Part shown: one piece after another, positions 1-25,838 of the stretch | Numbering within the stretch: position 1 is the first letter of the stretch | Layout of the letters: the number at the start of each line of letters is the position of its first letter | From: a virus | DNA: 59,242 nt | Virus record (IMG/VR): IMGVR_UViG_3300036398_002697 | Coordinates: 1 to 59,242 of that record | Direction: 5' to 3' (one strand) | The notes under the pieces: model-generated | What the model saw: the letters and a program-made list of their open reading frames with translations, nothing else | What the model was told of the DNA's origin: nothing | Database searches by the model: none | Position numbers and translations under genes: made by a program

Positions 1-638
1 TTGATACTATTCTTGACGGAGATTCCGAAAAGAAAAGTTTAGGATCAATGGCAAATGTTTGGAAATCTTTGCTTGAGATTGATTCAACATTAAACATTGG
101 ACTTTCTCCGATTGATGTTGGTCAAGCACTTGTCTATGTTGATAAACCAGCAGCGCGAAGATATTCGAAAGCAAACTTGAATCTTGTGCAGCACAAAGCA
201 AAGATTTTTGAATCAAAAGTTCATCATCTCATCTATCTAAATGAGATGTCTATTCATGATTTTATTCCAGCACTAGATGGTATTATCACTGCGGATATAT
301 GTCCTGGGAAATCAGTGAATAAAGATTTACTTAAATATGTTGATTATCTCTTTATTTCTGATGAAGATATTGATGATGATTTATCTGATTATGTGAAGGC
401 AACAAAAGGATATGTAGTGCTCCATAGTTCGTCAGGAAGCGTTGTATCAAATGGAGAGAATGAGTTCTTCTATAAACTACCAGAAGAACTTATGCTTAAG
501 GGAGTGAACGTTCTTGGTGCTGGTGACACATTCGCTTCTTGCTTATTATATAAATTACTAAGGAATGTGGGAGACATCCATAACTGGATTGAATTTGCTC
601 ATTTAAAGACAACTGAAATTATTAGGAATTCAATATGA
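1..638 (+). CDS. PfkB-family sugar kinase, 5' end cut by window
   Basis: The frame is open from base 3 through the window edge, so the true start lies upstream and the ATG at 48 is internal. The 3' part carries the PfkB second signature, LGAGDTFASCLL, whose Asp is the catalytic base, and the left end (SLGSMANVWKSL) looks like a diverged first signature. PfkB (ribokinase-family) enzymes phosphorylate sugars with ATP. The visible 211 residues lack perhaps 30-90 N-terminal residues of a normal kinase. It overlaps the next gene by 4 bases, so kinase and nucleotidyltransferase/isomerase are translationally coupled. That suggests it supplies a sugar phosphate for NDP-sugar synthesis; the substrate cannot be told. 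Confidence 0.8.
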   Translation, partial: DTILDGDSEKKSLGSMANVWKSLLEIDSTLNIGLSPIDVGQALVYVDKPAARRYSKANLNLVQHKAKIFESKVHHLIYLNEMSIHDFIPALDGIITADICPGKSVNKDLLKYVDYLFISDEDIDDDLSDYVKATKGYVVLHSSSGSVVSNGENEFFYKLPEELMLKGVNVLGAGDTFASCLLYKLLRNVGDIHNWIEFAHLKTTEIIRNSI

Positions 639-1792: not shown

Positions 1793-2109
1793 TTCAAGCA
1801 AATATTACTGACTTTAAAGCAGGATGGTTTGTTGGTGATTTTGAACCATCTATTTTTAAGAATCCATTCTTTGAAGTAGCACATCATAAGCATAAAAAGG
1901 GATGCAAAACTTTTCCTCATACTCATAAGGTTACCAATGAGTTAAACTACATTGTCTCTGGTGATCTTAAAGTTAATGGTAAATTTATGTCTACAGGTGA
2001 TATGTGGATTTATGAACCAAATGAAGTATCAGATGTGGAGTTTCTTGAAGATTCTGAATTGATCATTGTTAGATGGCCATCTATTCCTTCAGATAAGTAC
2101 ATGGTATGA
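1789..2109 (+). CDS. Small cupin-domain protein
   Basis: This 106-residue single-domain protein has a cupin pattern: FPHTHKVTNELNYIVSGD (metal-binding His pair and Glu) followed by a glycine-containing second strand (STGDMWIYEP). Small cupins bind metals and act as sugar isomerases, epimerases or sensors. In this operon a sugar-modifying role is plausible but unproven. The start is GTG at 1789, overlapping the upstream stop as GTGA, the coupling seen across this operon; no ATG lies nearby. Confidence 0.7.
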   Translation: MIQANITDFKAGWFVGDFEPSIFKNPFFEVAHHKHKKGCKTFPHTHKVTNELNYIVSGDLKVNGKFMSTGDMWIYEPNEVSDVEFLEDSELIIVRWPSIPSDKYMV

Positions 2110-2558
2110 AACTGATAGCACATAGAGGTAATACCACAGGACCTAATCCTTTAGAGGAAAATAAACCAGAATATATTGAGAGTGCAATCTCAGAAGGTTA
2201 TGATTCTGAGATTGATTTGTGGTATAAAGACAATTCTTTCTACCTAGGACATGATGAACCTCAGTATGAAATTAGTGCTCTATGGTTATACAAAAATAAA
2301 GAATCTTTATGGATTCATTGTAAAAACTACGACGCTCTTGAAAAAATATCAAACTCACCTGTAGATTATAATTTCTTCTGGCACGAAACAGATAAGTTTA
2401 CTCTCACAAGTAAAGGATATATCTGGACTTATCCTGGACAATCAGTAGGATGCAATTCTGTAGTAGTGATGCCAGAAACTACTAAAGATGGTATAATAAA
2501 TGTAAGTAACTATGAATGCTATGCTGTTTGTAGTGATTATGTGAGAGAAATAAAATGA
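2106..2558 (+). CDS. Glycerophosphodiester phosphodiesterase-like (PLC-like) protein
   Basis: The N-terminus MKLIAHRGN with ENKPEYIESAISEGYDSEID and YLGHDEP matches the core of the GDPD family: the HRG histidine, the Glu/Asp metal ligands and the following GHD. These enzymes cut phosphodiesters of glycerol or head groups using a divalent metal. At 150 residues it is shorter than usual GDPDs (about 240), so it is a minimal TIM-barrel half or a diverged binding protein. It starts with an ATGA overlap to the cupin gene and ends with an ATGA overlap to the next gene. It may act on phosphoglycerol decorations of a surface glycan (inference). Confidence 0.6.
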   Translation: MKLIAHRGNTTGPNPLEENKPEYIESAISEGYDSEIDLWYKDNSFYLGHDEPQYEISALWLYKNKESLWIHCKNYDALEKISNSPVDYNFFWHETDKFTLTSKGYIWTYPGQSVGCNSVVVMPETTKDGIINVSNYECYAVCSDYVREIK

Positions 2559-3295
2559 AAGTAGCATTATGTTTATCTGGTCAACCTAGAGTTGTTGATG
2601 TTGGATTTCATAAATTAAATCAGGCAATTCTTCAACACAACGATGTTGATGTATTCATTCATACTTGGTTTGATTCAGAAAATCTCAGCACTAATTCAGT
2701 TATACCTGGAAGAGAATCTCATAGATTAGATCCTCAAGCAATTGATAAACTTGTTCATTATTATCAACCAAAAAGAATAATGGTTGAGAAACCGAAGAAA
2801 TGGACAAGAAGATATGAATTTCCTGATAAGGTATTCACTCATTCTCATACATGGGCACTTGAAGTTCCTTCTGGATTAGAAGTAGCAAAGGATTATATTT
2901 GCGATACTACGAATAGTATGTTCTATAGTATTATGATTGCAAACCTTTTGAAAGAGCAGTATTCAGTAGAAACTGGCACTGAATATGATTTAGTAATTAG
3001 AAATAGAATTGACTACTCACCTCATGTAGTGTTAAAATTGGATGAGGTATCTGTAAATGATGATACATTAATATATCAAGATCTATACCAACCTGATGGT
3101 ATGATTAGTGATTGGTTTGGTATGGGTTCAACAAATACAATGAATGTATTCTGTGGTGTCTATAATCAAATAGGACAACTCATTCGACAATCAAATGAGA
3201 TTGATGGATATTGGTGTAATGAACTTCTTCTAAAACACCATATTGCAAATAACAAAATCAAAACAAATCCCGTAGATTATCAAGTTCATTACTAA
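2555..3295 (+). CDS. Putative glycosyltransferase-like protein (ALCLSGQPR family)
   Basis: The 246-residue protein opens with [12 protein letters not shown], an N-terminal motif I associate with glycan-cluster proteins of bacteria and giant or large viruses, followed by [26 protein letters not shown] segment around residue 145 is the usual acidic/basic core of that group. No enzymatic proof can be read from the sequence. It is embedded in the sugar operon, overlapping the upstream gene by 4 bases and ending one base before gmd. A role in glycan assembly is likely; glycosyltransferase activity is inference. Confidence 0.5.
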
Positions 3296-3296
3296 T

Positions 3297-4322
3297 ATGA
3301 AAAAAGCACTTATCACTGGTATTACTGGGCAAGATGGATCTTATCTTGCGGATCTCCTTTTAGGTAAAGGATATGAAGTTCATGGAATCATTCGTAGGAA
3401 TTCTACATCTGATTGTACAGATAGAATTAACTATCTTCTAGGAAATCCTAAGATTACATTGCATTATGGAGATCTAACTGACTTCTCTAACATCACCTCT
3501 ATCATTCAAGAAACACGTCCTGATGAGATTTATAATCTTGCAGCACAAAGTCATGTAAAAGTATCCTTCTCAAATGCACTCTATACTGCTGATGTAGATG
3601 CTCTTGGGGTGTGTCGCATTCTTGAAGCAATTAGAATTCTTGGATTGATTAATACAACTAAGTTTTATCAAGCAAGCACATCAGAAATGTATGGACTTGT
3701 TCAAGCAATTCCTCAAAGAGAAGATACAAAGTTTCATCCACGCTCTCCTTATGGCGTAGCAAAACTATATGCACACTGGATCACGAAAAACTATCGTGAA
3801 GCATATGGTTTATTTGGATGCAGTGGTATTCTTTTTAATCATGAAAGTCCTCGTCGTGGAGAAACTTTTGTGACGCGCAAGATTACCAAAACTCTTGCAG
3901 AGATTAAAAACGGTAAGCGCACTGCTCCACTTGAACTTGGTAATATGGATGCAAAACGTGATTGGGGTCATGCAAAGGACTATGTTGAAGCAATGTGGTT
4001 AATGCTTCAGAACGAAGAACCTGATGATTATGTCGTTGCCATGGGCGAGCAGCACTCTGTCCGCGAGTTTGTAAATATTGCATGTAATCATTTTGGATTT
4101 GATATTGAATGGTCTGGTAAGGGCGTAGAAGAAGTCGCAACTATCAAAGATACTGGCGAAGTTTTGGTTAAGGTTAATCCTGAATTTTATCGTCCTGCGG
4201 AAGTAGATTCTCTAGTTGGAGATCCTACTTATACTAGAGAAAGAATTGGATGGAAACCTAAGTATTCTTTTGCGGATCTTGTAAAAGAAATGTGTGATAG
4301 TGATCTGGAGGCAACAAAGTGA
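3297..4322 (+). CDS. gmd: GDP-mannose 4,6-dehydratase
   Basis: This full-length (341 aa) extended short-chain dehydrogenase has the NAD(P) loop GITGQDG (G8, G11, G14), the Gmd-typical [10 protein letters not shown], the catalytic Thr128 and Glu130 in STSEMYG, and Tyr152/Lys156 in [11 protein letters not shown]. The [17 protein letters not shown] segment is diagnostic for Gmd. It converts GDP-mannose to GDP-4-keto-6-deoxymannose, the precursor of GDP-fucose, GDP-rhamnose and GDP-perosamine. The GT11 fucosyltransferase three genes on would use GDP-fucose. No recognisable GDP-fucose synthase (Fcl) is here, unless the SDR at 6991 does that step or the host provides it. Confidence 0.95.
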
Positions 4323-5254
4323 AAAATAAGATTGTATTTTGGGTAGAGAATAAACCATATCAAACCTTTTCTTACATCTATGCTGGAATGAAGAAAGCAT
4401 TTGAAAGGTTGGGATGTGAAGTTTATTGGTTTAGTGATCAATCTTTTCCTTCACAATCTGAATTTGATTATTCAAACTGCATTTTCTTTGTAGATAATCA
4501 AGGACCTCTTGATTATAATGTGCCTATTGTTAATACTGGAATCTATTTTGCATATGATAAATTTACCAATGTTAACAAATATCTTGATAAAGTTAGATGT
4601 TTGGTAAATTATCGAGTCGCAGAGTTTAAGAAACCTATTCCAGATGATGATCGTTATGTTGAGATTGAAAAGGGCGTAACTTTTGATACTCAAGCACCAG
4701 AACCTTATAACGTTGTTTACTTTAGTTGGGCAACAAATTTAATGCCTGAAGAAATTGATTTGGACTGGGTAAACAAAGAACGCAATAATGAATATAACTT
4801 CGTAGGAACTATTCATGCTCCTAGATCAAATGCAGAACCACTTCATCAACAATTCATTGAGATTGTAAAGAATAAAGGTATTCCATTTAATCATTATGAT
4901 CCAAATATAAATCCTGCAACAGATGAAGAGCATGTGAATATTCTGCAGAGATCAATGTTTGTTCCTGACTTCAGACCACAAGAACAAAAAGACAATTGGT
5001 ATCTTCCTTGCAGAGTTCTAAAAGCAATTAGTTATGGATGTCTTGCAGTTTCTGATGCACCATACCTAAAGCACTTTATTGATGACAGCATTCTTACTTC
5101 AGAAAATGCTCAGGAAATTTTTGATCTTGGTATGGAAAATCAAAACAATAAAGAACTCATCCTTCATCAAATGGAAATTGTAAAGAGAGATCATACATAT
5201 TTGAATCGTTGTAGAGGTATTCTTAAAATCGTAGAACAGGTTAGATGTCAATGA
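4319..5254 (+). CDS. Putative GT-B-type glycosyltransferase
   Basis: The 311-residue protein starts with [22 protein letters not shown] and its C-terminal half has [20 protein letters not shown], the pattern of a GT-B donor-binding domain (variable loop, then ..A.S.G...VSDAP). FVGTIHAPR in the middle fits the interdomain strand. The start is GTG at 4319, overlapping the gmd stop as GTGA. Donor and acceptor are unknown. It lies between two nucleotide-sugar dehydratases, so a deoxysugar transferase is reasonable. Confidence 0.55.
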
Positions 5255-6186
5255 TATTTGTAACTGGTGGCGCTGGATTTATTGGAAGTAACTTTGTTCA
5301 TTTTTTAACAGAAAGAACGGATGAAGAAATAGTTGTTGTTGATAGGTTTAGTTATGCAGCAGACATGATGAATTTATATCCACTTTCACAACATAATATT
5401 GCAAGAGTGGATATTAGTAATCTAGAAAATCTTAGAGATCTGTTTGAAAGATATAAACCTTCAAAAATTTTTCATTTTGCTGCAGAAAGTCATGTTGATA
5501 ACTCAATTAAAGATGTTACACCTTTCATTGAATCAAACGTTATTGGAACAGTAAATCTTCTTCGTCTTTCTGTTGATTATGGAGTGGAGATGTTTCATCA
5601 CATTTCTACAGACGAAGTTTATGGATCACTTGGATATGATGATTCTTCTTTCACAGAAAAAACACCATATGATCCACAAAATCCATACTCTGCATCAAAA
5701 GCAGCAAGTGATCATTTTGTGATGGCATTTCACAACACATATGGACTTCCAGTTAAGATTACAAACTGCTCCAATAACTATGGTCCAAGACAAAACGTAG
5801 AGAAACTTATTCCTAAGACAATCACAAATATTTTGAAAGGAAATAGAATTCCTGTTTATGGTAAAGGAGAAAATATTCGTGATTGGATTTATGTTGAGGA
5901 TCATTGTGAAGCAATTTACGAAGTTTTTAATCATGGAAGAGTAGGTGAAAAGTATAATATTGGCGGAGAGTGTGAAGTCAAAAATATTGATCTAGTTAAA
6001 ACACTTTTAAATCTTCTTAATGCATCAGAAGAATTGATTGAATATGTTCAAGATCGTCCAGGACATGACTTGCGATATTCGATTGACAATGCTAAGATAC
6101 AATCAGAACTAGGTTGGACACCAAAGTATTCGCTGGAAAGTGGATTAGAAAAAACTATTAAATGGTATAGGAATGATAGGTTTTAA
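5251..6186 (+). CDS. rfbB: dTDP-glucose 4,6-dehydratase
   Basis: The protein starts [15 protein letters not shown]. The ATG at 5251 overlaps the previous stop as ATGA and fits family N-termini better than the ATG at 5245. Seen are the NAD loop GGAGFIG (6-12), AAESHVDNSI, the catalytic STDEVYG (T120, D121, E122), Tyr146/Lys150 in NPYSASKAASDH, and the RmlB-typical NNYGPRQNVEKLIP and RDWIYVEDHC. It makes dTDP-4-keto-6-deoxyglucose, precursor of rhamnose, fucosamine and many other deoxysugars. RmlA, RmlC and RmlD are not recognised here, so the host or genes outside the window must supply neighbours in the pathway. Confidence 0.93.
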   Translation: MIFVTGGAGFIGSNFVHFLTERTDEEIVVVDRFSYAADMMNLYPLSQHNIARVDISNLENLRDLFERYKPSKIFHFAAESHVDNSIKDVTPFIESNVIGTVNLLRLSVDYGVEMFHHISTDEVYGSLGYDDSSFTEKTPYDPQNPYSASKAASDHFVMAFHNTYGLPVKITNCSNNYGPRQNVEKLIPKTITNILKGNRIPVYGKGENIRDWIYVEDHCEAIYEVFNHGRVGEKYNIGGECEVKNIDLVKTLLNLLNASEELIEYVQDRPGHDLRYSIDNAKIQSELGWTPKYSLESGLEKTIKWYRNDRF

Positions 6187-6994
6187 TTATCTTGGTAAAA
6201 TGGGTCAACTGGGAAATCAAATGTTCCAGTATGCATCTCTTCGTGGAATTGCAAAAAATCTTGGGTATAATTTCTGCATTCCATATCACAATGAAGTAGT
6301 TTCTGATGGACTAGGTAATAAATTGAGGATTGAATTATTCGATCCTTTTGTAATGTCAAATGTTACTCAACTCAATATTCAAACCATTGACCAAGACAGA
6401 CCGACTGTTGTAGAAGAAGGATTTGCCTTTGATAAAAATATCTTTGATGAATGTCCAGATTGGGTAAATCTTCAAGGATATTTTCAAACTGAAAAATATT
6501 TTAAAAATATTGAAGATGAAATTCGTCAGGACTTCACCTTTAAAAATGAAATCTCTCTTCTTTGTAAACATAAAATGAGTGAAGTTGATAGACCTGTTGC
6601 ACTTCATATTCGTCGTGGTGATTTTCTAATCAACTCTGCAAATCATAATAATCTTGGACTTGATTATTATGAGGCATCTTTGGAAAAGTTTGATAGCAAT
6701 AGAACAGTCATAATCTTTTCCGATGATCCTGAATGGTGCAAAGAACAATCTCTATTTGAAGATGATAGGTTCTTGGTTTCAGAAGGAAATGATAGTTATA
6801 CTGATCTATGTCTAATGAGTTTGTGTGCAGATTTTATTATTGCTAACTCAACTTTCTCTTGGTGGGGCGCATGGTTATCTAAGAGCGTAAACAAGGTAGT
6901 GTGTGCTCCTGATCCAAAGAAATGGTTTGGTTCTAACAATGCACATCTCGACACAAGTGATTTGATTCCTGAGGAATGGACTATCGTTAAATGA
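6173..6994 (+). CDS. GT11 alpha-1,2-fucosyltransferase
   Basis: The three hallmarks of the GT11 family are present: LGNQMFQYA near residue 15, HIRRGD at 145-150 (GDP-fucose binding) and NSTFSWWGAWL at 225-235, plus QGYFQTEKYF at 101-110. GT11 enzymes add fucose alpha-1,2 to a terminal galactose, the H-antigen reaction in animals. The length (273 aa) is full. It overlaps rfbB by 14 bases and the next SDR by 4. Gmd upstream would feed GDP-fucose synthesis, and the GT6 gene one position downstream could use the fucosylated product. The acceptor glycan is unknown. Confidence 0.92.
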   Translation: MIGFNYLGKMGQLGNQMFQYASLRGIAKNLGYNFCIPYHNEVVSDGLGNKLRIELFDPFVMSNVTQLNIQTIDQDRPTVVEEGFAFDKNIFDECPDWVNLQGYFQTEKYFKNIEDEIRQDFTFKNEISLLCKHKMSEVDRPVALHIRRGDFLINSANHNNLGLDYYEASLEKFDSNRTVIIFSDDPEWCKEQSLFEDDRFLVSEGNDSYTDLCLMSLCADFIIANSTFSWWGAWLSKSVNKVVCAPDPKKWFGSNNAHLDTSDLIPEEWTIVK

Positions 6995-7776
6995 TTTACG
7001 TTACAGGTGCTAATGGATTAATCGGATCAAGATTTTTAGAAATTTATGATGGAGAAGTCACTACAATTTCTTACAGAGATGAAGTTGTTGATGTCTTTGA
7101 ATCTCATGAAAATTCTTGCTTGATTCATCTTGCATGGTCTTCTACAACTAGAAATACCTATGATGAATTTAAAAAAGTTATTAAAAATGATGTAACTAAT
7201 AGCAAAACTTTATTTGACTACTATGTAAAGAAGAATCCAAATGGAAAGGTTATATTCATTTCCTCTGCTGGAGATTTGCATCTTGGCCACAATAGAACTG
7301 TTTGGGAACAGCATGAACCATCACCACACTCTTTATATGGAGAGTGTAAACTTCATGTAGAAAATATGCTAAAGGAACTTTCATGTAAAACCGTTGTGCT
7401 TAGAACTTCTAATGTTTGGGGAGCAAATGTTAGTGACAGCAGAGTAAATGGTTTAGTTGATAAACTTATTAATTCATTGAACACTGATAGAGTAATTGAA
7501 ATTTTTGCAGATCTAAAAACAAGAGTAGATTTAATTCATATTGATGACTTTGTTGATCTACTCATCAAAGTTGTTGATAAAAATTTAGAAAACCAACACG
7601 AATTGTTTCTGGTTGGAAGACAATCTTTGTCAATATGTGATATAATAGATATAGTATCAAAACGTGGATCTTTAAATCTTAGAATCAATCAAAAAGCAGA
7701 AAAGACGTATTTGCATATTGAAAATTCTAAAGTTAGAAGAACTTTTGATTGGCAACCAAATCATATTTTAAAATGA
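6991..7776 (+). CDS. NAD-dependent epimerase/dehydratase (extended SDR)
   Basis: The N-terminal MIYVTGANGLIGSRF has the Rossmann glycine motif; ISSAGDLHLG and SLYGECKLHVE give the Ser and Tyr-x3-Lys active site. At 261 residues it is at the short end, like RmlD or GDP-fucose-synthase-type reductases. It sits directly after the fucosyltransferase, so it could complete GDP-fucose from the Gmd product or reduce the RmlB product; this is inference. Coupled by ATGA overlaps on both sides. Confidence 0.75.
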   Translation: MIYVTGANGLIGSRFLEIYDGEVTTISYRDEVVDVFESHENSCLIHLAWSSTTRNTYDEFKKVIKNDVTNSKTLFDYYVKKNPNGKVIFISSAGDLHLGHNRTVWEQHEPSPHSLYGECKLHVENMLKELSCKTVVLRTSNVWGANVSDSRVNGLVDKLINSLNTDRVIEIFADLKTRVDLIHIDDFVDLLIKVVDKNLENQHELFLVGRQSLSICDIIDIVSKRGSLNLRINQKAEKTYLHIENSKVRRTFDWQPNHILK

Positions 7777-8504
7777 AAATTGCAGTTACATTTTGGGGAA
7801 CTCAAAAATATATTGAGTTTCTTCCTCAGTGGTATGAAAGATTGGAAAAGTATTTTATTCCTGAAGTAGAAAAAAAATACTTTGTTTTTACTGATGGAGA
7901 TCTTGAAGGATCTCCAGATAATATTGTGAAGATGAAAATTCCTCACTATGGATTTCCAACAACTTATCATAAGACATTTGAAGAAATGTTAAAATTGAAG
8001 CATAAAGTTTCTGATTGTGATTGGTTGATATCTGTTGATGCTGATCTTTATGCATGGGAAGAAATTGAATATTCCGATTTCTTTGATGATGCTAAGAAGT
8101 ACATTGGTGTCCATCATCCTTGCCACAAAATTGGATTTCAACCACACAATCAATATCCAGGATCATACGACATAAATCCATTGTCAAATGCTTGCATTGA
8201 TGATAGTATTATGGATATGTCCGTGTATTATCAAGGATGTTTATGGGGAGGAAAAGTTCCTTTTATCTTTGACATGATAGAACAAATTGATCTTTGGACT
8301 AAAAAGGATGTTGATAATAATGTCTCTGCAAGATATTATGAAGAGAGTTATATGAACAAGTGGTTTCTAACTCATCGTGATGAAACACATACACTTGCTC
8401 CTGACTATGCTTTTCCAGAAATGTTCGAACAGTATTGTGAATTCCCCAAGAAAATGGTTCACCTTGCAAAAGATAATAAAGCATTAGAAAATAATCAGTG
8501 GTAA
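7773..8504 (+). CDS. GT6 (ABO/alpha-1,3-galactosyltransferase family) glycosyltransferase
   Basis: The start at 7773 (ATGA overlap) gives 243 residues. The order of motifs matches family GT6, which includes human A/B transferases: VFTDGD near 38-43, the metal site SVDADLY (D89, D91) equivalent to the human DVD, YYQGCLWGGKV at 152-161 equivalent to YYLGGFFGG, ARYYEESYMNKWFL with E191 at the place of the catalytic Glu303, then LAPDYAFPE and HLAKDNKALENN. GT6 enzymes move Gal or GalNAc to galactose with retention. Many bacterial GT6 lack the DxD metal motif; this one keeps it. A GT6 gene in cyanophage P-SSM2 has been noted before. Confidence 0.88.
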   Translation: MKIAVTFWGTQKYIEFLPQWYERLEKYFIPEVEKKYFVFTDGDLEGSPDNIVKMKIPHYGFPTTYHKTFEEMLKLKHKVSDCDWLISVDADLYAWEEIEYSDFFDDAKKYIGVHHPCHKIGFQPHNQYPGSYDINPLSNACIDDSIMDMSVYYQGCLWGGKVPFIFDMIEQIDLWTKKDVDNNVSARYYEESYMNKWFLTHRDETHTLAPDYAFPEMFEQYCEFPKKMVHLAKDNKALENNQW

Positions 8505-8508
8505 TTTT

Positions 8509-9273
8509 ATGAGAGTAAATGTTTACTATCACATTTGGTCTCCTGCAGATACTGATCTGTGGAAGATCATGGTTGATGAACAAATTAAAAGATTATATCG
8601 TTCAGGACTTACTGAAGTAGCAACTGTGAAGTGTGCTATTAATGGAGCACAAGCATCTAGAATCAAAGAGTTTGTTTCTCTCTATGATTGGATTAATATT
8701 GTGGATTGTAGAGATAGTGATGAAGAGTATGAAGGTTTTACTCTTAAACATCTCTACGAAGATTGCGTAAATGAACGAGCACACAAAGTGATGTACTTTC
8801 ATACAAAAGGAATTAGTCATTTTTGTGGTGTGAGAGACGTTTATTCTGATCGTAGAGTGCGAGCAATAAATAGTTGGAGACACCTCATGGAATGGGGTTG
8901 TATTGATAAATGGAAAGAAAATCTTGATAGGTTAGATACCTATCAGGTTACAGGAGTTAATTACTGTTTAGATCCATGGCCACATATGAGTGGTAATTTT
9001 TGGTGGGCGAGAGCAGATTATATTTCAACTCTTCAACATCCAACTAAACAAGCATTCAATCGTGAAAAAGAAGATTTTGGTCCTATTGAAAGAATGAATT
9101 TTGAAAAGTGGGTCGGTATGAAAGATCCATCAGTATTCAGTTTTTATAATCCTCCATTTAGTTACGACTTTAAGGATATGGTGCCTGATGTGCAACCTAC
9201 TCCTCCAGGTGAACCACATTGGTTCTGGTTATATCGTGACGACATTCATCCACACTATCTGAAAGAATCATGA
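8509..9273 (+). CDS. Putative glycosyltransferase (HTKGIS family)
   Basis: The 254-residue protein contains VMYFHTKGISHF, NSWRHLMEWGCIDKW and HMSGNFWWARADYI in order, a set I recognise from uncharacterised sugar-cluster proteins of phages and bacteria in which HTKG and GNFWWA are invariant. No classical DxD can be assigned with certainty. It lies four bases after the GT6 gene and overlaps the next by 4. Glycan assembly is inferred from context and family. Confidence 0.55.
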   Translation: MRVNVYYHIWSPADTDLWKIMVDEQIKRLYRSGLTEVATVKCAINGAQASRIKEFVSLYDWINIVDCRDSDEEYEGFTLKHLYEDCVNERAHKVMYFHTKGISHFCGVRDVYSDRRVRAINSWRHLMEWGCIDKWKENLDRLDTYQVTGVNYCLDPWPHMSGNFWWARADYISTLQHPTKQAFNREKEDFGPIERMNFEKWVGMKDPSVFSFYNPPFSYDFKDMVPDVQPTPPGEPHWFWLYRDDIHPHYLKES

Positions 9274-9998
9274 CTGTAAAATTTGGATGTTTTCATACCG
9301 TATATGAAAACAAAAAAGCAACTGAGTTTGTACTACAAGAATTTAGAAAGTATCATCCAGATGCACCATACACTATCTGTTGTGATGGTGGTGTGGATTA
9401 TTCTGACTTGTGTGAAAAATATAACGTCAACTATGTTCATTCTTATATGAGAATTGGGCGTAGAAATTCTGGTCATCCATCAGGAGTATATGGATTCACT
9501 AAGGATGAGAGTTTACATTGGATTCATATGTTTAGAGAGGCTGCTAGACATGTGAAAGCAAATGGTGGAACTCACATGATTATGATGGAGGACGATGTTC
9601 TCACTCAGGGTGAAGTAAAGATCAATCCTATCTGGGAGTGTGCGGGATTTGAAGTTCCTGGAAATACAATAGCACCAGCACTTTTAGATTTCATTCGTGA
9701 TAAGTACGGTGCAAATCCAAATGTAGATTGGTATGGAGCGGGTGGGGGTAGCATTTATAATATTGAGACCTTCCTTAATAATTACCACAAAATCTATGAC
9801 TTTATTGATTTTGATTTTGAGAATATTCTAAGCAATATGGATTATCGATTTGGATGGTTAGATCTTTACATGCAGATTGCATATTTTGTAATCGGCAAGC
9901 ATTATTCAATTAATACTAATCTCACTGAAGTATGGAAAACACCTAATTTCCGCGAAAGTGATTTCACTCTTGTTCATGCATATAAGGAATTGTACTGA
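9270..9998 (+). CDS. Putative GT-A glycosyltransferase
   Basis: The protein has THMIMMEDDVL with an EDD metal-binding triad at residues 107-109, preceded by a Rossmann-like first half (FGCFHTVYENKKATEF, YTICCDGGVDYSD). DWYGAGGGSIYN and RFGWLDLYMQ follow, as in GT-A fold acceptor regions. Family assignment is not possible by eye. It is coupled by short overlaps to both neighbours in the glycosyltransferase block. Confidence 0.55.
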   Translation: MTVKFGCFHTVYENKKATEFVLQEFRKYHPDAPYTICCDGGVDYSDLCEKYNVNYVHSYMRIGRRNSGHPSGVYGFTKDESLHWIHMFREAARHVKANGGTHMIMMEDDVLTQGEVKINPIWECAGFEVPGNTIAPALLDFIRDKYGANPNVDWYGAGGGSIYNIETFLNNYHKIYDFIDFDFENILSNMDYRFGWLDLYMQIAYFVIGKHYSINTNLTEVWKTPNFRESDFTLVHAYKELY

Positions 9999-10969
9999 TG
10001 AAAATTGGATTTATTGGACCTGGTATTATGCCCATTCCGCCTGATGGATGGGGTGCTGTTGAATCTCTAATTTGGGAGATTGCTTGTGAACTTGGTGAGA
10101 AAGGTCATGAAGGAATGATCATTAATGTTCCTGATCTCAATGAAATTGTAAAGACCGTTCAAGAAAATGACTTTGATTTTATTCATCTCTTCTATGATGT
10201 TTTTCATCCAGTGATGGATGCTATTAAACAAGTATCACCAAAATCTGTAACTGCGATTAGTAGTGCATATCCTTATGTTGATCAGTTTGAATTTCATCAG
10301 AGAGACGGATATACTGCTACTTACAACTGGTTAGTGAATCAGAAGGATCACTATAATTTCTGTCTCTCTGATAAAGATCTTGAAACTTATAAGAATGGTG
10401 GTGCTGATACTTCTAAACTTCTTCGCTTAGGTCTTGGTGCTCAGCACAAGAACTTCAAGTTCAATGTTGAATGTGAGAAACCAGATAAAACTCTGTACAT
10501 GGCAAAGATTGAAGTCAGAAAGCGTCAGTGGATTTATCAATCAATTGATAGTATTGAATTCGTTGGTCGTTATTCTCCAACTACCACGTTTGATCGTCTT
10601 CATAAGAGTTATATTGGTGAATGGACCACTGAAGAAAAGCATGAAAATGTAACCAAATATGCAAACTTAATGCTTCTCTCCGATGGCGAAAATGGAACAC
10701 CACTGGTAATCAAAGAGGCATTAGTTTCTGGTATTGGTATTGTGTGCTCCAAGTATGCTGCATATGATCTTGATGTTTCTCTTCCTTTCATTACTATCAT
10801 TCCTGACGATAAACTGAATGATCTTGAATATGTAGAGAATGCAATCAAAGAAAATAGAGAAGTTTCTGTTGGTATGCGCGAAGAAATTCGTGAGTATGGT
10901 GTAAAGAATTTCTCATGGGAGAATATCGTCAATCAATATGAAAAGGACATTCTTGAAATTCTAAAATGA
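9998..10969 (+). CDS. GT4-like glycosyltransferase, first of a tandem pair
   Basis: The GT-B fold is indicated by the N-terminal IGFIGPGIMPIPPDGWGAVE and the C-terminal donor site SDGENGTPLVIKEALVSG, a variant of the retaining GT4 E-x7-E motif. The next gene is a clear paralogue with the same PIPP.GWGAVESLIW opening and the same KRQ..QSIDS and LLSDGE segments, so the two arose by duplication. The start overlaps the upstream TGA as TGATG. Confidence 0.75.
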   Translation: MKIGFIGPGIMPIPPDGWGAVESLIWEIACELGEKGHEGMIINVPDLNEIVKTVQENDFDFIHLFYDVFHPVMDAIKQVSPKSVTAISSAYPYVDQFEFHQRDGYTATYNWLVNQKDHYNFCLSDKDLETYKNGGADTSKLLRLGLGAQHKNFKFNVECEKPDKTLYMAKIEVRKRQWIYQSIDSIEFVGRYSPTTTFDRLHKSYIGEWTTEEKHENVTKYANLMLLSDGENGTPLVIKEALVSGIGIVCSKYAAYDLDVSLPFITIIPDDKLNDLEYVENAIKENREVSVGMREEIREYGVKNFSWENIVNQYEKDILEILK

Positions 10970-11916
10970 GAATATCAATTATTGGACCAGCACTTCCAAT
11001 TCCACCAAAAGGTTGGGGTGCTGTTGAATCTTTAATTTGGGATATGAAATTATCCTTGAACAAACTTGGACACGAAGTTCAGATCGTAAATGTTGGTGAT
11101 CCTTATCAGATTATCAATATGATTAATCAGTTTCGTCCAGATTTTGTTCATATTAATTATGACGACTGGATTGGTTTATATCCTTATATTCAATATCCTT
11201 GTGCAGTTACAACACACTTTGCATATATTGAACGTCCAGAACTGATGGGTGGATATAGACAAAGAGTATTTGATCAGTTTACTAACATTAAACCAAACGT
11301 TTTTGGTTTATCGGATGGTATTAATAATATCTACAATACACTTGCAGAGATTCCAGAAGATAAACTTTATCTGAATCCAAATGGTGTAATGATGGAAAAC
11401 TTTAGATTTTCAGAGAGTCCTGAGTTTCCTAATAGATCAATCTATCTTGCAAAAGTAGATCATAGAAAGCGTCAGTTCTTATTTCAAAGTATTGATTCTC
11501 TTTGGTATGCTGGTAATATTGCAGAAGATAGATTTGATCAATCTAAAAACTACCTTGGCGAGTGGCAAAAAGAAGTTCTTTACCAAAACTTAACGGATTA
11601 TGGTAACTTAGTTCTTCTTTCTGATGGAGAAGCACATCCTCTTGTTTGTATGGAAGCATTTGCTGCTGGACTTGGTGTAGTTGTAAGTGAATGGGCTACT
11701 GCAAATCTTGATCTTGATAGAGAATTTATTTCTGTAATTCCTGAAAATAAAATTGAAGATTCTTCATTTGTTGAAGAAGTAATTGTAAAAAATAGAGAGT
11801 ATTCTATTCAACACCGACAAGAAATTTTGGACTATGCAAAAGAGTTTGAATGGTGTACAATACTTAAAAAGCATTATCTACCAAATATAGAAAAGATTGT
11901 CAATGGATATCATTAG
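10966..11916 (+). CDS. GT4-like glycosyltransferase, second of a tandem pair
   Basis: This 316-residue protein aligns by eye along its whole length with the gene before it: IIGPALPIPPKGWGAVESL, AKVDHRKRQFLFQSIDSLW, YLGEWQKE and LLSDGEAHPLVCMEAFAAG, the last holding the GT4 acidic pair. Diverged donors or acceptors are the likely reason for keeping two copies. Coupled by an ATGA overlap. Confidence 0.75.
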   Translation: MRISIIGPALPIPPKGWGAVESLIWDMKLSLNKLGHEVQIVNVGDPYQIINMINQFRPDFVHINYDDWIGLYPYIQYPCAVTTHFAYIERPELMGGYRQRVFDQFTNIKPNVFGLSDGINNIYNTLAEIPEDKLYLNPNGVMMENFRFSESPEFPNRSIYLAKVDHRKRQFLFQSIDSLWYAGNIAEDRFDQSKNYLGEWQKEVLYQNLTDYGNLVLLSDGEAHPLVCMEAFAAGLGVVVSEWATANLDLDREFISVIPENKIEDSSFVEEVIVKNREYSIQHRQEILDYAKEFEWCTILKKHYLPNIEKIVNGYH

Positions 11917-12715
11917 AGACAAAAATAAATCTGCACATAAACTCAAAAACTTTGGTCCAATCTATCTGATCAATTTAGATGGACAACCAGAGCGTTGGGA
12001 GTATATGAAAGAACAGTTTGACTACTGGGAACTCACTGATTATCATCGTGTATCTGCATATGATGGTAGAGAAGATGATTTGAGTGATATTATCAAAGGT
12101 AGGTATCCGGAAAATATGACTTCTGGTGAAGTTGGTTGTGTTACCTCTCATCTAAAAGCAATTAAGTATTGGTATGAAACTTCTGATAGTCCATATGCAA
12201 TTATCATGGAAGATGATTGTAACTTAGATCTTGTCCAATATTGGAACTTTACTTGGCAAGATGCTATTGCAAGAGTTCCTTATGATTGGGATGTAGTTCA
12301 ACTTGCTATTATTTGTACTGGCGATATTCATGTAAAAATTCACAAAAGATTTGTGAATGAATTCTCTACAGCATGTTATGTGATTACAAGACACCATGCA
12401 CAAAAACTGATCAATTTACATTGTAGAGGTGACAAGTTTAAACTTGATAATGGAGTTCGTCCTCGTCCAGTTGCTGATGATTTGATTTACAATTCGGGCA
12501 ATACTTATTCAATTCCAATCTTACTTTACAAAATTGAGTTGGGATCTAGCATTCATCCAGATCATATTGATACTTTCCATAGGGGTAATCATCAAGCAAT
12601 TTCTAACTTCTGGGTCACCTCTGGTTCAAACTATCCTATTGATGAATTGATGGATTACAATCCATATCTTGGAAGAGTGACAGAAAGTTCAGCGGTACAA
12701 CAACAAAACTCTTGA
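11903..12715 (+). CDS. GT25 family (LOS/LPS) glycosyltransferase
   Basis: From ATG 11903 (270 aa) the protein shows the GT25 order: YLINLDGQPERW (residues 21-32), GEVGCVTSHLKAIKYW (75-90) and YAIIMEDDCN with an EDD metal site at 103-105. GT25 enzymes such as LgtB add galactose to lipooligosaccharide. A TTG at 11897 in the same frame is a weaker start. It is the last gene of the sugar operon; its stop lies inside the -35 box of the porin promoter, which marks the operon end. Confidence 0.85.
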   Translation: MDIIRDKNKSAHKLKNFGPIYLINLDGQPERWEYMKEQFDYWELTDYHRVSAYDGREDDLSDIIKGRYPENMTSGEVGCVTSHLKAIKYWYETSDSPYAIIMEDDCNLDLVQYWNFTWQDAIARVPYDWDVVQLAIICTGDIHVKIHKRFVNEFSTACYVITRHHAQKLINLHCRGDKFKLDNGVRPRPVADDLIYNSGNTYSIPILLYKIELGSSIHPDHIDTFHRGNHQAISNFWVTSGSNYPIDELMDYNPYLGRVTESSAVQQQNS

Positions 12716-12809: not shown

Positions 12810-14276
12810 ATGAAACTCAAACAACTGATGCTCGCACCTGTTGCTCTGGGTATGGTTGCTCCTGTTGCTGCGAATGCCGCAGATCTTAATATGGTAGCAG
12901 TCAACCAATACTCCTCTGAGCAGGTCACAAGCGTCACTCAATTTTCTGATGTGCAACCTACCGATTGGGCATATCAAGCACTCTCGCAACTGGTAGAGCG
13001 TTACGGTTGCGTTGCTGGTTATCCTAACGGCACTTTCCGTGGTGTTCGTGCCATGACTCGTTATGAGGCAGCAGCACTTCTGAATGCTTGTCTTGACCGT
13101 GTGACTGAAGTTACCGATGAACTCAAGAAGCTTCTTGCAGAATTCGGTGCTGAACTCGCTGTTCTGAAAGGTCGTGTTGATGGTCTAGAAACCAAAGTTG
13201 GTGTTCTGGAAGCACAACAGTTCTCCACCACCACCAAACTGCGTGGTGAAGCAAACTTTGTTCTTGGTGGTGTAGATAACTACCAAACCAAAAGTGGTGA
13301 CATCACTCGTACTGCATTCAACTATGATCTGCGTCTGAACCTGGACACTTCATTCACCGGACAAGATCTTCTGAAAACCCGTCTGCGTTCTGCTAACTTT
13401 AGCAGCAATCCTTTCGGTTCCAGTTCTTCGATCTTCAAACTGGATAAGGCAGATAACACCTCTGGTGAAAACGGTAACAACGTAGTTATCGACCGTCTGT
13501 ATTACCAGTTCCCTGTATTCAACGGTAGCACTACTCTTACTGCTGGTGCTCTAGTTCGTAACACAGAGATTGCCTGGGTTCCTACTGCTTATAAGTCGGG
13601 TATTCTTGACTTCTTTGCTGTTGCTGGTGCTCCTGGTGTATATAACAAAGCAGTTGGTTCTGGTTTCGGTATCCAGTATGGTAAGAAAGGTCTTGTTGCT
13701 GGTGTAAACTATGTGGCACAGAATGGTGCTGATAGTTCTAAGGGTGAGTTTGATCGTTCTGGTGCTCTGAACACTCTGGCACAGATTGGTTATCGTGGTA
13801 CTAACTGGGGTGCTGCTTTCGGTTATCGTTATGGCACCGAAGGCACCCGTGTTCGTACCTACAACGGTCTGAACGGTGCTTCTGGCACTCTGGTTCCAGG
13901 TCAAACCTCTAATGGTTATGCCCTGAATGCTTACTGGCAACCTACTCAATCTGGTTGGGTTCCCTCCATCTCTGGTGGTTACGGTTGGAATACTGTAAGT
14001 GGCACTCAAAGTGCTGCTACCAACAGCCAGTCCTGGTTTGCTGGTCTGACTTGGGAAGATGTGTTTGTTGATGGTAACTCTGCTGGTGTTGCTATCGGTC
14101 AAGCACCTACAGGCGAGAACCTTGAGAAGTCCACGATGCTTGAAATCTTCTACAAGTATCAAGTGTCTGATAACATCAGCGTCACTCCTGCTATCATCTA
14201 CGGAAGTGACAATCAGCGCCTTGCTGGTAACTCTTCTAACTGGGGTGGTGTGATTCAGACGACCTTCAAGTTCTGA
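12810..14276 (+). CDS. Cyanobacterial-type porin with signal peptide and SLH domain
   Basis: The 488-residue protein has a signal peptide (KLKQLMLAPVALGMVAP..., cleavage likely after AANA), an SLH domain at about 44-97 (FSDVQPTDWAYQAL, GYPNGTFRG, MTRYEAAALLN), a coiled coil at about 98-137 (VTDELKKLLAEFGAELAVLK), then a beta-barrel of OprB/Som type ending in Phe (TTFKF). This is the architecture of major outer-membrane porins of marine picocyanobacteria. Codon use is richer in C and G than the sugar operon, fitting acquisition from a host. It has its own promoter and terminator. It would change outer-membrane permeability or replace the host porin in infected cells (inference). Confidence 0.9.
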   Translation: MKLKQLMLAPVALGMVAPVAANAADLNMVAVNQYSSEQVTSVTQFSDVQPTDWAYQALSQLVERYGCVAGYPNGTFRGVRAMTRYEAAALLNACLDRVTEVTDELKKLLAEFGAELAVLKGRVDGLETKVGVLEAQQFSTTTKLRGEANFVLGGVDNYQTKSGDITRTAFNYDLRLNLDTSFTGQDLLKTRLRSANFSSNPFGSSSSIFKLDKADNTSGENGNNVVIDRLYYQFPVFNGSTTLTAGALVRNTEIAWVPTAYKSGILDFFAVAGAPGVYNKAVGSGFGIQYGKKGLVAGVNYVAQNGADSSKGEFDRSGALNTLAQIGYRGTNWGAAFGYRYGTEGTRVRTYNGLNGASGTLVPGQTSNGYALNAYWQPTQSGWVPSISGGYGWNTVSGTQSAATNSQSWFAGLTWEDVFVDGNSAGVAIGQAPTGENLEKSTMLEIFYKYQVSDNISVTPAIIYGSDNQRLAGNSSNWGGVIQTTFKF

Positions 14277-16164: not shown

Positions 16165-16863
16165 ATGCTCATAGATCTCCATAATTTTTTCAAGCACTAC
16201 GACGAAAAAAATCCAAAGCACGTTGCTGCTGTTGAGCAACTAGAAAAAGATTTGCAACTGAAAGCCCAAGATTTAATGCAAGATGATGCAAATTGGGTGA
16301 GAATTTATAGATCTAAAGAAGACAAACCTCAAACTTCAATTTTACAAGTTCCTTTTTATCCACAGACAGACAACTATAGAGATGCAAATAGAACTTGCAA
16401 CTCTTCTGCTTGTGCAATGTGCCTTGAGTATTTCAAACCCGGTACACTAAAAGGACCTAAAGGCGATGACGCCTATGTACAAAAAGTTTTCTCAATCGGT
16501 GACACAACTGACCACTTGGTTCAGACCAAAGTTCTTGCGTCATACGGTATTAAGTCCAGTTTCAGTTATAGCCTTTCTTTTGCTGATCTTGATAGAGAGC
16601 TTGCCTCTGGTAGACCTGTTGTTATTGGTATTCTTCATCGCGGTCCTCTATCGCGTCCCACAGGCGGACACATGGTAGTTGTGATTGGCAAGACCCCTTC
16701 AGGTGATTATGTGGTCAATGATCCATACGGTTCACTAAATGATGGATACACTGGTTCAGTTAATAATGGTAAGGGTGCTGTTTATAAGAGAAGCGAACTT
16801 TCTCGCAGATGGTGTCCAGGTGGTAATGATGGTTGGGGTAGATTATTTGATGCAAAAAAGTAG
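16165..16863 (+). CDS. C39-like cysteine peptidase, 0-frame product of a frameshift pair
   Basis: From ATG 16165 (232 aa) the protein has a helical N-terminus, then a papain-like C39_2 core: LQVPFYPQTDN, RTCNSSACAMCLEYF with the likely nucleophile C78, GGHMVVVIGK with H169, and VVNDPYGSLN with D186. Such domains in phages cleave peptides of the cell wall. A GTG at 16144 would lie at the late promoter start site, so ATG 16165 is preferred. The gene ends in GCA AAA AAG TAG, a slippery site followed by a hairpin; a -1 shift joins it to the lysozyme domain downstream (391 aa in total). Confidence 0.75.
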   Translation: MLIDLHNFFKHYDEKNPKHVAAVEQLEKDLQLKAQDLMQDDANWVRIYRSKEDKPQTSILQVPFYPQTDNYRDANRTCNSSACAMCLEYFKPGTLKGPKGDDAYVQKVFSIGDTTDHLVQTKVLASYGIKSSFSYSLSFADLDRELASGRPVVIGILHRGPLSRPTGGHMVVVIGKTPSGDYVVNDPYGSLNDGYTGSVNNGKGAVYKRSELSRRWCPGGNDGWGRLFDAKK

Positions 16864-16895
16864 AAACGCCAACTAATAATGTTTCGTTAGTTGGC
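16854..16895 (+). promoter_or_regulatory. Programmed -1 ribosomal frameshift signal
   Basis: The heptamer A_AAA_AAG is at 16854-16860, in register with the upstream frame and directly before its TAG stop. After a 7-base spacer comes a perfect 9-bp stem, GCCAACTAA (16868-16876) with TTAGTTGGC (16887-16895), loop 10 bases. A_AAA_AAG is the most efficient bacterial -1 site (as in E. coli dnaX), and a stem 5-9 bases beyond is the known stimulator. Shifting enters the GH24 frame at 16860 with no stop until 17337. There is no T run after the stem, so it is not a terminator. Confidence 0.75.
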
Positions 16896-16901
16896 ATTAA
16901 A

Positions 16902-17339
16902 TTGATAAAAGAATTTGAAGGATGTCATCTGAATGCTTATCCTGATCCATTAACAGGTGGACTTCCAATCACTATTGGTTGGGGAAGCACTAAAGATTTT
17001 AATGGCGATTTCTTCAAACTTGGTAGAAAGATTACTCAAGAGTATGCTGATAAACTTTTGATATTTGATATTGAGCAAAGGTTTCTCCCTTCGCTACAAA
17101 AAATTCCATATTGGAATGAGATGAATGAAAACCAACAAGGTGCTCTACTATCTTTTGCTTATAATCTTGGTGCTCTCTTTTACGGGTCTTCTGGTTTCAA
17201 TACAATAACTAGAGTTCTTAAGAATAAAGAATGGAATAAAGTACCTGATGCTCTTTATCTTTATCGCAATCCAGGAACTAAAGTTGAAAAGGGATTAGCA
17301 AGAAGAAGAAAAGCAGAAGGTGATTTGTGGTCTTCTTAA
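16902..17339 (+). CDS. GH24 phage-type lysozyme domain, -1 frame of the frameshift pair
   Basis: The domain has LIKEFEGCHLNAYPDPL (catalytic Glu), PITIGWGS (the Asp/Thr strand), NQQGALLSFAYNLG and GLARRRKAEGDLW, the four conserved blocks of T4-lysozyme/endolysin GH24 enzymes. No ATG exists in frame. A TTG at 16902 is the only standard-type start, it lacks a Shine-Dalgarno motif, and it would remove the conserved residues SLVGIK that begin GH24 domains. The frame is open back to 16860, so the coding part made by the -1 shift is 16860-17339 (159 residues after the peptidase). Expected role: endolysin. Confidence 0.85.
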   Translation: MIKEFEGCHLNAYPDPLTGGLPITIGWGSTKDFNGDFFKLGRKITQEYADKLLIFDIEQRFLPSLQKIPYWNEMNENQQGALLSFAYNLGALFYGSSGFNTITRVLKNKEWNKVPDALYLYRNPGTKVEKGLARRRKAEGDLWSS

Positions 17340-17662
17340 TCTTCTTCTACTTTTGTTCTTAACGCGATTACAGTAGTCAATATAGTTAATAAAGTTTCAT
17401 ATCCTCTTCTTTCAGATTCTTTACAATCTAAAGGAGGAGGATTTTTTAATTCTCCTTTTACATTTGCTTTATTGATTGTTCCTGGAACCATAAAGTTACA
17501 AGCAACAAAGTTAACGCCAACAAATCCAATAATAGAACAGCAAACAATAAAGATAAGTTTATTTAAAATAGAACCCTTTCTTCTTACCTCTTTTTGCTGG
17601 TCTTCTGATGAACCTGATGACTTCTGCTGGTTGTCTTTTTGGTTGAGGTCTTCTTCCTTCAT
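17336..17662 (-). CDS. Small membrane protein next to lysis genes
   Basis: The 108-residue protein has a charged N-terminus, a strong membrane helix at about 33-57 (KLIFIVCCSIIGFVGVNFVA), a proline/Cys linker and a second hydrophobic stretch (YETLLTILTTVIAL) before an acidic end. GAGG precedes the ATG. It converges on the lysozyme with a 4-base overlap. Size and two hydrophobic segments fit a holin, antiholin or lysis regulator, but no family is recognised, so this is context only. Confidence 0.6.
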   Translation of the reverse strand: MKEEDLNQKDNQQKSSGSSEDQQKEVRRKGSILNKLIFIVCCSIIGFVGVNFVACNFMVPGTINKANVKGELKNPPPLDCKESERRGYETLLTILTTVIALRTKVEED

Positions 17663-17726
17663 TAAATACTCCCTCGTTTGTTATCAATCTTATTGCCAAC
17701 AATCCAACCAGAAATATTTTTTTCAT
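17559..17726 (-). CDS. Candidate overlapping gene, 55 residues
   Basis: On the minus strand the ATG at 17726-17724 overlaps the stop of the gene at 17723 as ATGA and has GAGGGG just upstream. It encodes MKKIFLVGLLAIRLI, a short signal-like helix, then a basic tail rich in Arg, Lys and Pro, and ends at 17559. Most of it overlaps the 108-residue gene in another frame, an arrangement like spanin pairs, but there is no lipobox Cys. It could be real or a by-product of the overlap. Confidence 0.35.
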   Translation of the reverse strand: MKKIFLVGLLAIRLITNEGVFNEGRRPQPKRQPAEVIRFIRRPAKRGKKKGFYFK

Positions 17727-17914
17727 CTCCCCTCTGTTTTATGTATCCATGTCTTAAGTTCTGTAAGATAGTTTCTCAACATATCCGCTTTTTCTAAATG
17801 CCATTTGTCACCACTCTTGAAGTATTCTTGAGTGTGATTATCTATTGCTTTGAGTGTATTATGTATAGGTGCGTTCCAAGGCTCTCTGACAGGAGTATTC
17901 CATTCCCTTGGCAT
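17723..17914 (-). CDS. 63-residue conserved phage-type hypothetical protein
   Basis: A small soluble protein with NAPIHNTLKAIDNHTQEYF and DKWHLEKADMLRNYLTELK, giving two amphipathic helices. The run of conserved-looking charged and aromatic residues resembles short unnamed cyanophage proteins. Minus strand, first of the small minus-strand cluster, with the next start coupled to its stop. Function unknown. Confidence 0.6.
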   Translation of the reverse strand: MPREWNTPVREPWNAPIHNTLKAIDNHTQEYFKSGDKWHLEKADMLRNYLTELKTWIHKTEGR

Positions 17915-19568: not shown

Positions 19569-20018
19569 ATGAATACTAAAGTTTGCTCTCAATGCTCAAA
19601 GGAAAAAGTCGTAACTGAATTTTATAAAAGAAAGAATAGACCATCTGGTTATCTTTCCGAGTGTAAAGAATGTACCAAACAAAGAAACTTGAATAGGTAC
19701 AAAGATAATCCAGATAAAATAAACGACATGCGAGCAGCAAAAACATATGGAATACCATATGATGATGTTGTAAAAATGAGAGAGGAAGCAAATGGTATTT
19801 GTAAGATATGTGGCAGAGAAGGTGTGAAGCACCATTCACGATTAGTAATTGATCATTGCCACAAAACTGGAAAGGTTAGAGGATTGATTTGCAGTAAATG
19901 TAATACAATACTTGGTTATTGTAATGATGATCCATCTATCTTGAATAAATTGTCCACTTACTTAGAAAAAAATGGTAGCATCAACATTAACACAACAACA
20001 AACACGGGGGTGGTTTGA
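19569..20018 (+). CDS. Endonuclease VII-like (HNH/His-Me) homing endonuclease
   Basis: The 149-residue protein has an N-terminal zinc finger (CSQCSKEK..., [10 protein letters not shown]) and a C-terminal treble-clef His-Me core: [26 protein letters not shown] and [10 protein letters not shown], as in the endonuclease VII family. It is free-standing between psbA and psbD, and its last 15 codons overlap the 5' end of psbD, so the insertion took its stop from psbD sequence. It probably cuts phages lacking it near psbA/psbD. A true T4 gp49 resolvase role is less likely. Confidence 0.85.
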
Positions 20019-25297: not shown

Positions 25298-25512
25298 GTG
25301 AAGGTTTTAAAGGTTTTGCTAAATCAGCAGAAGACAAAGAATTTCGTCTTTATATTAAAAACAGAGAAGTAAATAAACTTATCAAAGAATATAAGAAACT
25401 TAAGAAGTATCAAAAATCATCTATTTTTGAAATTGAAAAACTTTCGGGTAACGAAACAAAGATAGATAAACTTATTAACGAATATGGGATAGACCCCGAA
25501 GCAATTGAATAA
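25294..25512 (+). CDS. 72-residue helical hypothetical protein
   Basis: Starts in an ATGA overlap. Highly charged helices (FRLYIKNREVNKLIKEYKK, KSSIFEIEKLSGNETKIDKL), probably a coiled coil. Its TAA shares a base with the speD ATG (TAATG), so it is coupled to speD. Confidence 0.55.
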   Translation: MSEGFKGFAKSAEDKEFRLYIKNREVNKLIKEYKKLKKYQKSSIFEIEKLSGNETKIDKLINEYGIDPEAIE

Positions 25513-25838
25513 TGGGAAAGCATTATCTTCTTAATTTGTATGGATGCTCGTTTGTCCTTTTGGACGACGAGCGTTGTCTTATTGACCTTCTTGAAAATGC
25601 AGCAGTTGCCAGTGGTGCTACTGTGATTCAAACAATCTCAAAAAAGTTTGAACCACAGGGAGTTACTGTAATCTGTTTACTATCAGAAAGTCATATTAGT
25701 ATTCATACTTGGCCTGAGGAAGGTAAGGCTGCAGTAGATGTTTATACTTGTGGTGATTGCAATCCAAAGATTGGTTGCGATATCATCATTCAACAACTTT
25801 ATGCTACAGAACACACGCTCAGTTATATTGAGCGATAA
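25512..25838 (+). CDS. speD: S-adenosylmethionine decarboxylase proenzyme
   Basis: The 108-residue protein has the self-cleavage site LSESHISIHTWPE, cutting between E59 and S60 so that S60 becomes the pyruvoyl group. CGDCNP with the catalytic Cys follows. It is a single-domain prokaryotic SpeD that supplies decarboxylated AdoMet for spermidine synthesis. speD is a frequent cyanophage gene; polyamines help package DNA and stabilise photosystems. Confidence 0.95.
   Translation: MGKHYLLNLYGCSFVLLDDERCLIDLLENAAVASGATVIQTISKKFEPQGVTVICLLSESHISIHTWPEEGKAAVDVYTCGDCNPKIGCDIIIQQLYATEHTLSYIER

Follow-up and report, generated by a model that had tools for sequence, protein, structure and literature searches.

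The locus studied here raises the question of how a lysozyme is made from a reading frame that lacks a recognisable start of its own. The window, meaning the whole stretch of DNA analysed (59,242 nucleotides, IMG/VR record IMGVR_UViG_3300036398_002697), is a 59-kb viral contig carrying T4-like cyanophage markers, namely gp32, PsbA, PsbD and a tail lysozyme. Within it, a peptidase open reading frame ends in GCA_AAA_AAG_TAG (16852-16863), and the -1 frame, which encodes the lysozyme, is open from 5′ of the A-rich heptamer through to a TAA at 17337-17339. Upstream of the lysozyme domain, the window holds neither ATG nor GTG in the lysozyme frame, TTG 16902 being the sole candidate start and having no Shine-Dalgarno-like sequence 5′ of it, and no in-frame internal start with a ribosome site was found in the window. 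A first-pass annotation had read this arrangement as a programmed -1 frameshift fusing a C39-like peptidase to a GH24 lysozyme, and its description of the site was borne out: A_AAA_AAG lies in the peptidase register directly 5′ of the stop, a hairpin follows after a 7-base spacer, the -1 frame leads openly into a lysozyme devoid of ATG or ribosome site, and both enzyme identities are confirmed by Pfam (Table 1).

Table 1. Features of the peptidase-lysozyme junction, in window coordinates.
Feature	Coordinates	Strand	Support
NTD, helical, ~52 aa, 'IDLHNFFKHYDEKNPKHVAAVEQLEKDL...WVRIYR'	16165..16320	+	PHROG 3617/10051 N-terminus; helices pLDDT ~90
C39-like papain-fold peptidase domain	16342..16728	+	PF13529 (C39_2) 5.3e-14; Foldseek
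0-frame product NTD-C39 peptidase, 232 aa, C-terminus ...FDAKK-stop	16165(ATG)-16863	+	
Slippery heptamer A_AAA_AAG, peptidase-frame register	16854..16860	+	
0-frame TAG stop, abutting the heptamer	16861..16863	+	
Stem-loop, putative stimulator: arms 16868-16877 / 16886-16895, 8-nt loop, 7-nt spacer	16868..16895	+	
-1 frame extension: linker VETPTNNVSLV + GH24 lysozyme; forms the 391-aa fusion together with 16165-16860	16860..17339	+	
GH24 Phage_lysozyme domain, catalytic Glu-Asp-Thr present	16908..17318	+	match E 7.5e-24; PF00959 2.4e-22

The window stem comprises 10 bp, of which 9 are Watson-Crick pairs and one is G-U, and folds at -16.5 kcal/mol versus -8.2 for shuffles (z -3.7), a value matched by 0/200 shuffles. 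We propose that most ribosomes would terminate at TAG to release the 232-residue NTD-C39 peptidase, while some, paused by the stem, would slip at the two lysine codons and read ...FDAKK-VETPTNN..., yielding a 391-residue NTD-C39-GH24 fusion. That such slippage occurs, and at what frequency, we infer from sequence. Upstream, a G-run (TGGGG) sits about 20 nt 5′ of the heptamer, farther than the dnaX stimulator and fixed by the protein, as it encodes a conserved WG; no other Shine-Dalgarno-like stimulator candidate was seen by eye 5′ of the window heptamer.

The catalytic sites of both enzyme domains are conserved. Peptidase residues Gln67, Cys78, His169 and Asp186 are invariant in 41 relatives, and the peptidase model (pLDDT 83) matches, by Foldseek, C39 peptidases, papain-like enzymes and the pseudomurein endoisopeptidase PeiR, while the Glu, Asp, Thr triad of the lysozyme is invariant in the family. 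The gene product is likely a two-enzyme endolysin. The NTD forms part of the peptidase and, in relatives, is also joined straight to lysozyme; a Pfam search with the NTD alone gave no match, and the AlphaFold model of an NTD-lysozyme chain was poor (pLDDT 57), leaving the NTD fold unassignable.

Several neighbouring genes deserve mention in their own right. Tail-to-tail with the lysozyme, with a 4-nt overlap, lies a minus-strand gene (17336-17662) whose 108-aa product contains a single, strongly hydrophobic segment and has no Pfam or PHROG match yet is present in 178 fetched loci; it is a candidate membrane protein of the lysis cassette. Next on the same strand (17723-17914), a 63-aa unannotated protein occurs in 267 fetched loci at identities of up to 95%, a very strong conservation for its size. 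Elsewhere, positions 48-12715 are dense in sugar-nucleotide and glycosyltransferase genes (GDP-mannose dehydratase, epimerase, GT11 and GT6 family transferases, RpiB-like) and look like a phage-borne polysaccharide or O-antigen biosynthesis cluster, positions 12810-14276 encode a phage-borne SLH-domain plus OprB-type porin of the cyanobacterial kind, and an Endonuclease VII-like gene (19569-20018) lies between psbA and psbD, overlapping the psbD start.

From 61 phage records and scans of IMG/VR, we assembled 210 distinct loci, each with a lysozyme of the family placed downstream of an NTD or NTD-C39 part. Frameshift coding is apparent in 170/210, a stop-start overlap alone in 21/210, and an in-frame fusion without a recognised site in 19/210, with the caveat that the loci are mutually related and these counts overstate independence. 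At 127/148 open -1 junctions, the upstream open reading frame carries an in-register X_XXY_YYZ heptamer close to its end. Group I, to which the window belongs, has a C39 peptidase followed by lysozyme in the -1 frame and includes 130 loci, 109 of them with a heptamer at most two codons from the stop: 99 A_AAA_AAG, 7 C_CCA_AAG, 2 T_TTT_TTT (as in S-CAM7) and 1 A_AAA_AAA. All 21 group I loci without a heptamer have an ATGA or GTGA stop-start overlap (counted as group V). Lysozyme is the frameshift product in every group I case.

The remaining loci are organised differently. In group II, the peptidase has a gene of its own, and that for lysozyme consists of the NTD and a CPHCGK(P/S)LGK segment ending on G_GGA_AAG-stop (18/18), with lysozyme in the -1 frame, such that the short product is the NTD plus a CPHCGK knuckle, without an enzyme domain. 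Four different heptamers are counted at the equivalent place, including C_CCA_AAG and, in this peptidase-free gene, G_GGA_AAG. Group III contains 20 in-frame NTD-C39-lysozyme fusions, 6 of which keep A_AAA_AAG followed by one -1 codon and a stop (among them the ACG-2014f type, L147 and L150), and 14 of which lack the site, two of these with seven A; the marine fusions L091-L099 and L198-L203, likewise in frame, were searched for a heptamer and have none. Of the 42 in-frame NTD-lysozyme genes in group IV, 34 have A_AAA_AAG, with exactly one codon before the -1 stop, and 3 others have C_CCA_AAG, with two codons before it. Across those 34 loci, the residues at the two positions following Lys-Lys differ (TS, GN, SS, NS, TN, SN, HS, SD, TE), and the heptamer and -1 stop are invariant, against 3% expected from synonymous choice. 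With the lysozyme in frame and a -1 stop so early, the predicted frameshift product in groups III and IV is the short form. S-CREM1, which lies outside the 210 loci, encodes lysozyme, NTD and C39 in that order and in a single frame. Translation from an in-frame ATG, preceded there by a strong AGGAGG, would yield NTD-C39 by itself, and an internal start of this kind was seen in this permuted gene only. S-CBP4, MC09 and S-CRES1 carry related C39 domains with different partners.

Two side observations concern the N-terminal parts. A single CPHCG knuckle lies just 5′ of the frameshift in group II (L161, L165, L169, L172, L187, L427 and others), which could suggest half a zinc site and dimerisation of the short chain. 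Besides, in relatives with a stop-start ATGA (L065, L077, L079, L174, L214, L251 and others), the N-terminal domain of the lysozyme is another one (F.DA...Y....PHQ..AW.FLQ), akin in motif to the usual NTD, and a similar domain stands 5′ of C39 in S-CRES1 (L628).

Chance does not account for the heptamer at these junctions. In-frame X_XXY_YYZ heptamers occupy 225/44,107 codon positions in the family (0.5%), none of the 173 Lys-Lys pairs within domains is encoded by A_AAA_AAG, and open reading frames ending in xKK-stop use A_AAA_AAG in 99/100 cases, with 8.4% expected from codon usage. As to decoding, E. coli ribosomes shift to -1 very readily on A_AAA_AAG, because the only tRNA-Lys of this bacterium forms a weak pairing with AAG (PMC5009743). 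Synechococcus RCC307, a host-type cyanobacterium that may not be the host of this phage, has one tRNA-Lys, with anticodon UUU; a tRNA-Lys with anticodon CUU, which would weaken A_AAA_AAG, is absent from the RCC307 tRNA genes, and the window itself encodes no tRNA-Lys. Separately, a speD-like gene of the window (25512-25838) contains an in-frame A_AAA_AAG at 25640 followed by one -1 codon and TGA, which could be chance.

Downstream stems differ in length with the presence of an ATGA overlap. Of 90 group I junctions that have A_AAA_AAG but lack ATGA, 85 show a stem of 7 or more contiguous bp, versus 4-6 bp in 7/7 loci where A_AAA_AAG coexists with an ATGA overlap; relative to synonymous-codon shuffles, z averages -2.6 over 65 loci and -0.07 over 6 that have ATGA. 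Good folding is likewise seen for group II and C_CCA_AAG loci (z averaging -1.9 and -2.5, respectively), and the region downstream of the group IV site does not exceed its synonymous shuffles (z averaging -0.56). The conservation of the hairpin, which the first-pass annotation had proposed comparing in homologues, takes the form of covariation rather than of a fixed sequence, with stems in three different registers and sequences across the family. For two of these registers, both sides changed in 7/13 and 6/11 pairs, in sets chosen for having a stem, a choice that biases the percentage paired and affects compensatory changes less. The covariation score was reached by 0/500 shuffles in both registers and drops on sliding the partner.

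Taken together, the exact recurrence of six A, the alternative heptamers, the covarying stems, the short stems where ATGA is present and the single tRNA-Lys(UUU) strongly favour a programmed -1 shift. We consider it very probable, from comparative sequence evidence, that the T4-like cyanophage endolysin gene carries a conserved programmed -1 frameshift cassette by which both chains are made, their ratio probably being under selection. The earlier proposal that one gene yields the peptidase alone plus a 391-residue two-domain fusion is likewise supported by this comparison. An alternative in which the window harbours a sequencing or assembly error, or a decaying pseudogene, and the true gene has seven A and encodes one plain fusion, could appeal to the rare relatives L074 and L083, the only loci with seven A, where the gene is in frame. 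The homologues rule it out to within a negligible residual chance: some 99 distinct loci, and likewise cultured S-PM2 (matched equally by two separate records), have a run of six A and the out-of-frame arrangement, other lineages use C_CCA_AAG or G_GGA_AAG, to which homopolymer miscounting is inapplicable, stems covary, and catalytic residues are conserved in both domains. Separate genes in homologues, the other finding that might have counted against a frameshift, do exist in DSL-LC02/03, but their lysozyme genes hold a frameshift cassette of their own and thereby extend the frameshift case rather than refute it.

Slippage of RNA polymerase on the A-run, adding one A to some mRNA, would also join the frames; A-runs can cause it, variants with T_TTT_TTT or A7 exist, and Thermus dnaX employs it (PMC5009743). 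Six A is short, however, compared with the runs of about 9 cited in the same source, C_CCA_AAG and G_GGA_AAG contain no run longer than 3 bases, and the terminal G, the fixed spacing, the covarying stem and the single tRNA-Lys UUU of a host-type cyanobacterium suit a ribosomal cassette, so that, given above all the short run and the other heptamers, we regard transcriptional slippage as very unlikely. Even less credit is due to a lysozyme made separately, by termination-reinitiation or from TTG 16902, with no frameshifting. Relatives with ATGA overlaps (L044, L065 and others) probably use reinitiation, but the window has no lysozyme-frame start near TAG, and stems are long without ATGA and short where it accompanies A_AAA_AAG; a TTG or reinitiation start in the window was rejected for want of a ribosome site before the TTG. 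The first-pass annotation had argued against this codon from GH24-conserved residues lying upstream of it, which holds for the Gly-Ile at the start of the first helix and fails for the catalytic Glu-Asp-Thr, located 3′ of the TTG, so that a TTG start would keep the active site.

Granting programmed frameshifting, what it is for may be read in more than one way. It might merely throttle a toxic lysozyme, the short product being roleless, in line with lysozyme always being the frameshift product in group I. We find this unlikely, while leaving it an appreciable chance: in 43 in-frame relatives the frameshift would yield the short form as in dnaX, pointless for throttling alone, S-CREM1 with its swapped order has the internal ATG described above, and the G_GGA_AAG group keeps a short product despite its lack of an enzyme domain. 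The inverted versions and this enzyme-less product are thus left unexplained by simple throttling. The selected property is, from the family comparison, most likely the ratio of a lysozyme-less NTD protein to an NTD-bearing lysozyme. The earlier claim that frameshifting sets the product ratio accordingly gains support from the dnaX-like inverted versions, support that stops short of proof.

Our preferred hypothesis, by analogy with two-polypeptide endolysins, is that the short chain would act as a partner to the long one in function rather than as a mere second enzyme or by-product, perhaps through a common wall-binding or oligomerising NTD. Several devices across the family would hold the junction in an out-of-frame or dnaX-like state, such that both chains would normally be made. 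On the lysozyme-domain tree, which rests on a short alignment and has modest support, coding mode changes at least 24 times among 10 states, and close pairs show opposite modes, e.g., L147 (dnaX-like) beside L072 (group I). Frameshifting is not indispensable, as the 19/210 in-frame loci without a site and the 21/210 with an overlap only indicate. A broader reading, which we hold tentatively and at a little under an even chance, is that of an obligate two-chain endolysin family in which -1 frameshifting sets the stoichiometry and the frameshifted chain has been swapped repeatedly, or an overlap or internal start substituted, with both chains kept.

These observations bear on the lysis of picocyanobacteria by marine and freshwater cyanophages. 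The S-PM2 gene annotated as 'putative lysin' (L003, 2457-2675) starts well inside the lysozyme domain, which matches from 2229, and is missing its catalytic N-terminus; public annotations miss the fusion, and some annotated cyanophage lysins are consequently truncated. The family offers a large, well-conserved -1 frameshift candidate in endolysins, where nearly all known two-product coding relies on internal starts and comes from phages of Gram-positive hosts, and, with both dnaX polarities and several devices at one junction, it is suited to separating ratio from attenuation. An earlier description of frameshifting in cyanophage endolysins was not found in the openly licensed literature; within that literature, the mechanism, canonical -1 frameshifting, is known, and its use in these enzymes appears new.

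Among known systems, the lambda-type tail assembly chaperone employs the heptamer G_GGA_AAG. It shares with the cyanophage gene a -1 frameshift in a phage gene and a common N-terminal part, and with group II the heptamer itself, but produces structural assembly proteins instead of a lytic enzyme. E. coli dnaX (tau/gamma) presents the same heptamer A_AAA_AAG, a 3′ stem and two products with a common N-terminus, and its short form, gamma, ends in the -1 frame one codon past the site, as would those of groups III and IV. Unlike the cyanophage family, in which none is established, dnaX has an upstream Shine-Dalgarno stimulator; gene and function are different, and in the window, unlike in E. coli, it is the long form that would be the frameshift product, although reversed dnaX arrangements are reported from some bacteria (PMC5009743).

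Lysins are listed by PRFect among genes with known frameshift, citing a Lactococcus phage (PMC10885494). As far as the citing papers describe it, the lysozyme-like lysin gene of Lactococcus phage phi-vML3 (Shearman 1994; cited in PMC10885494, PMC3111421) has overlapping products, the second being a smaller holin-like protein beside the lysin (PMC3111421); on that account, the resemblance to the cyanophage gene lies in two overlapping products of one lysozyme-like lysin gene, and the difference in a layout that is not homologous. A further parallel is offered by the two-polypeptide endolysins CTP1L, CD27L, Lys170 and LysIME-EF1, from phages of Gram-positive hosts, whose second chain arises by internal start (PMC9430671, PMC4777826), PMC9430671 making no mention of frameshifting, and in the CTP1L type the truncated chain controls oligomerisation and activity (PMC4777826). 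There, as proposed here, one gene gives rise to a full-length enzyme and a truncated chain, in their case forming an active hetero-oligomer; unlike them, with their internal start and common C-terminal wall-binding domain, the cyanophage chains would share their N-terminal part and be set apart by frameshifting.
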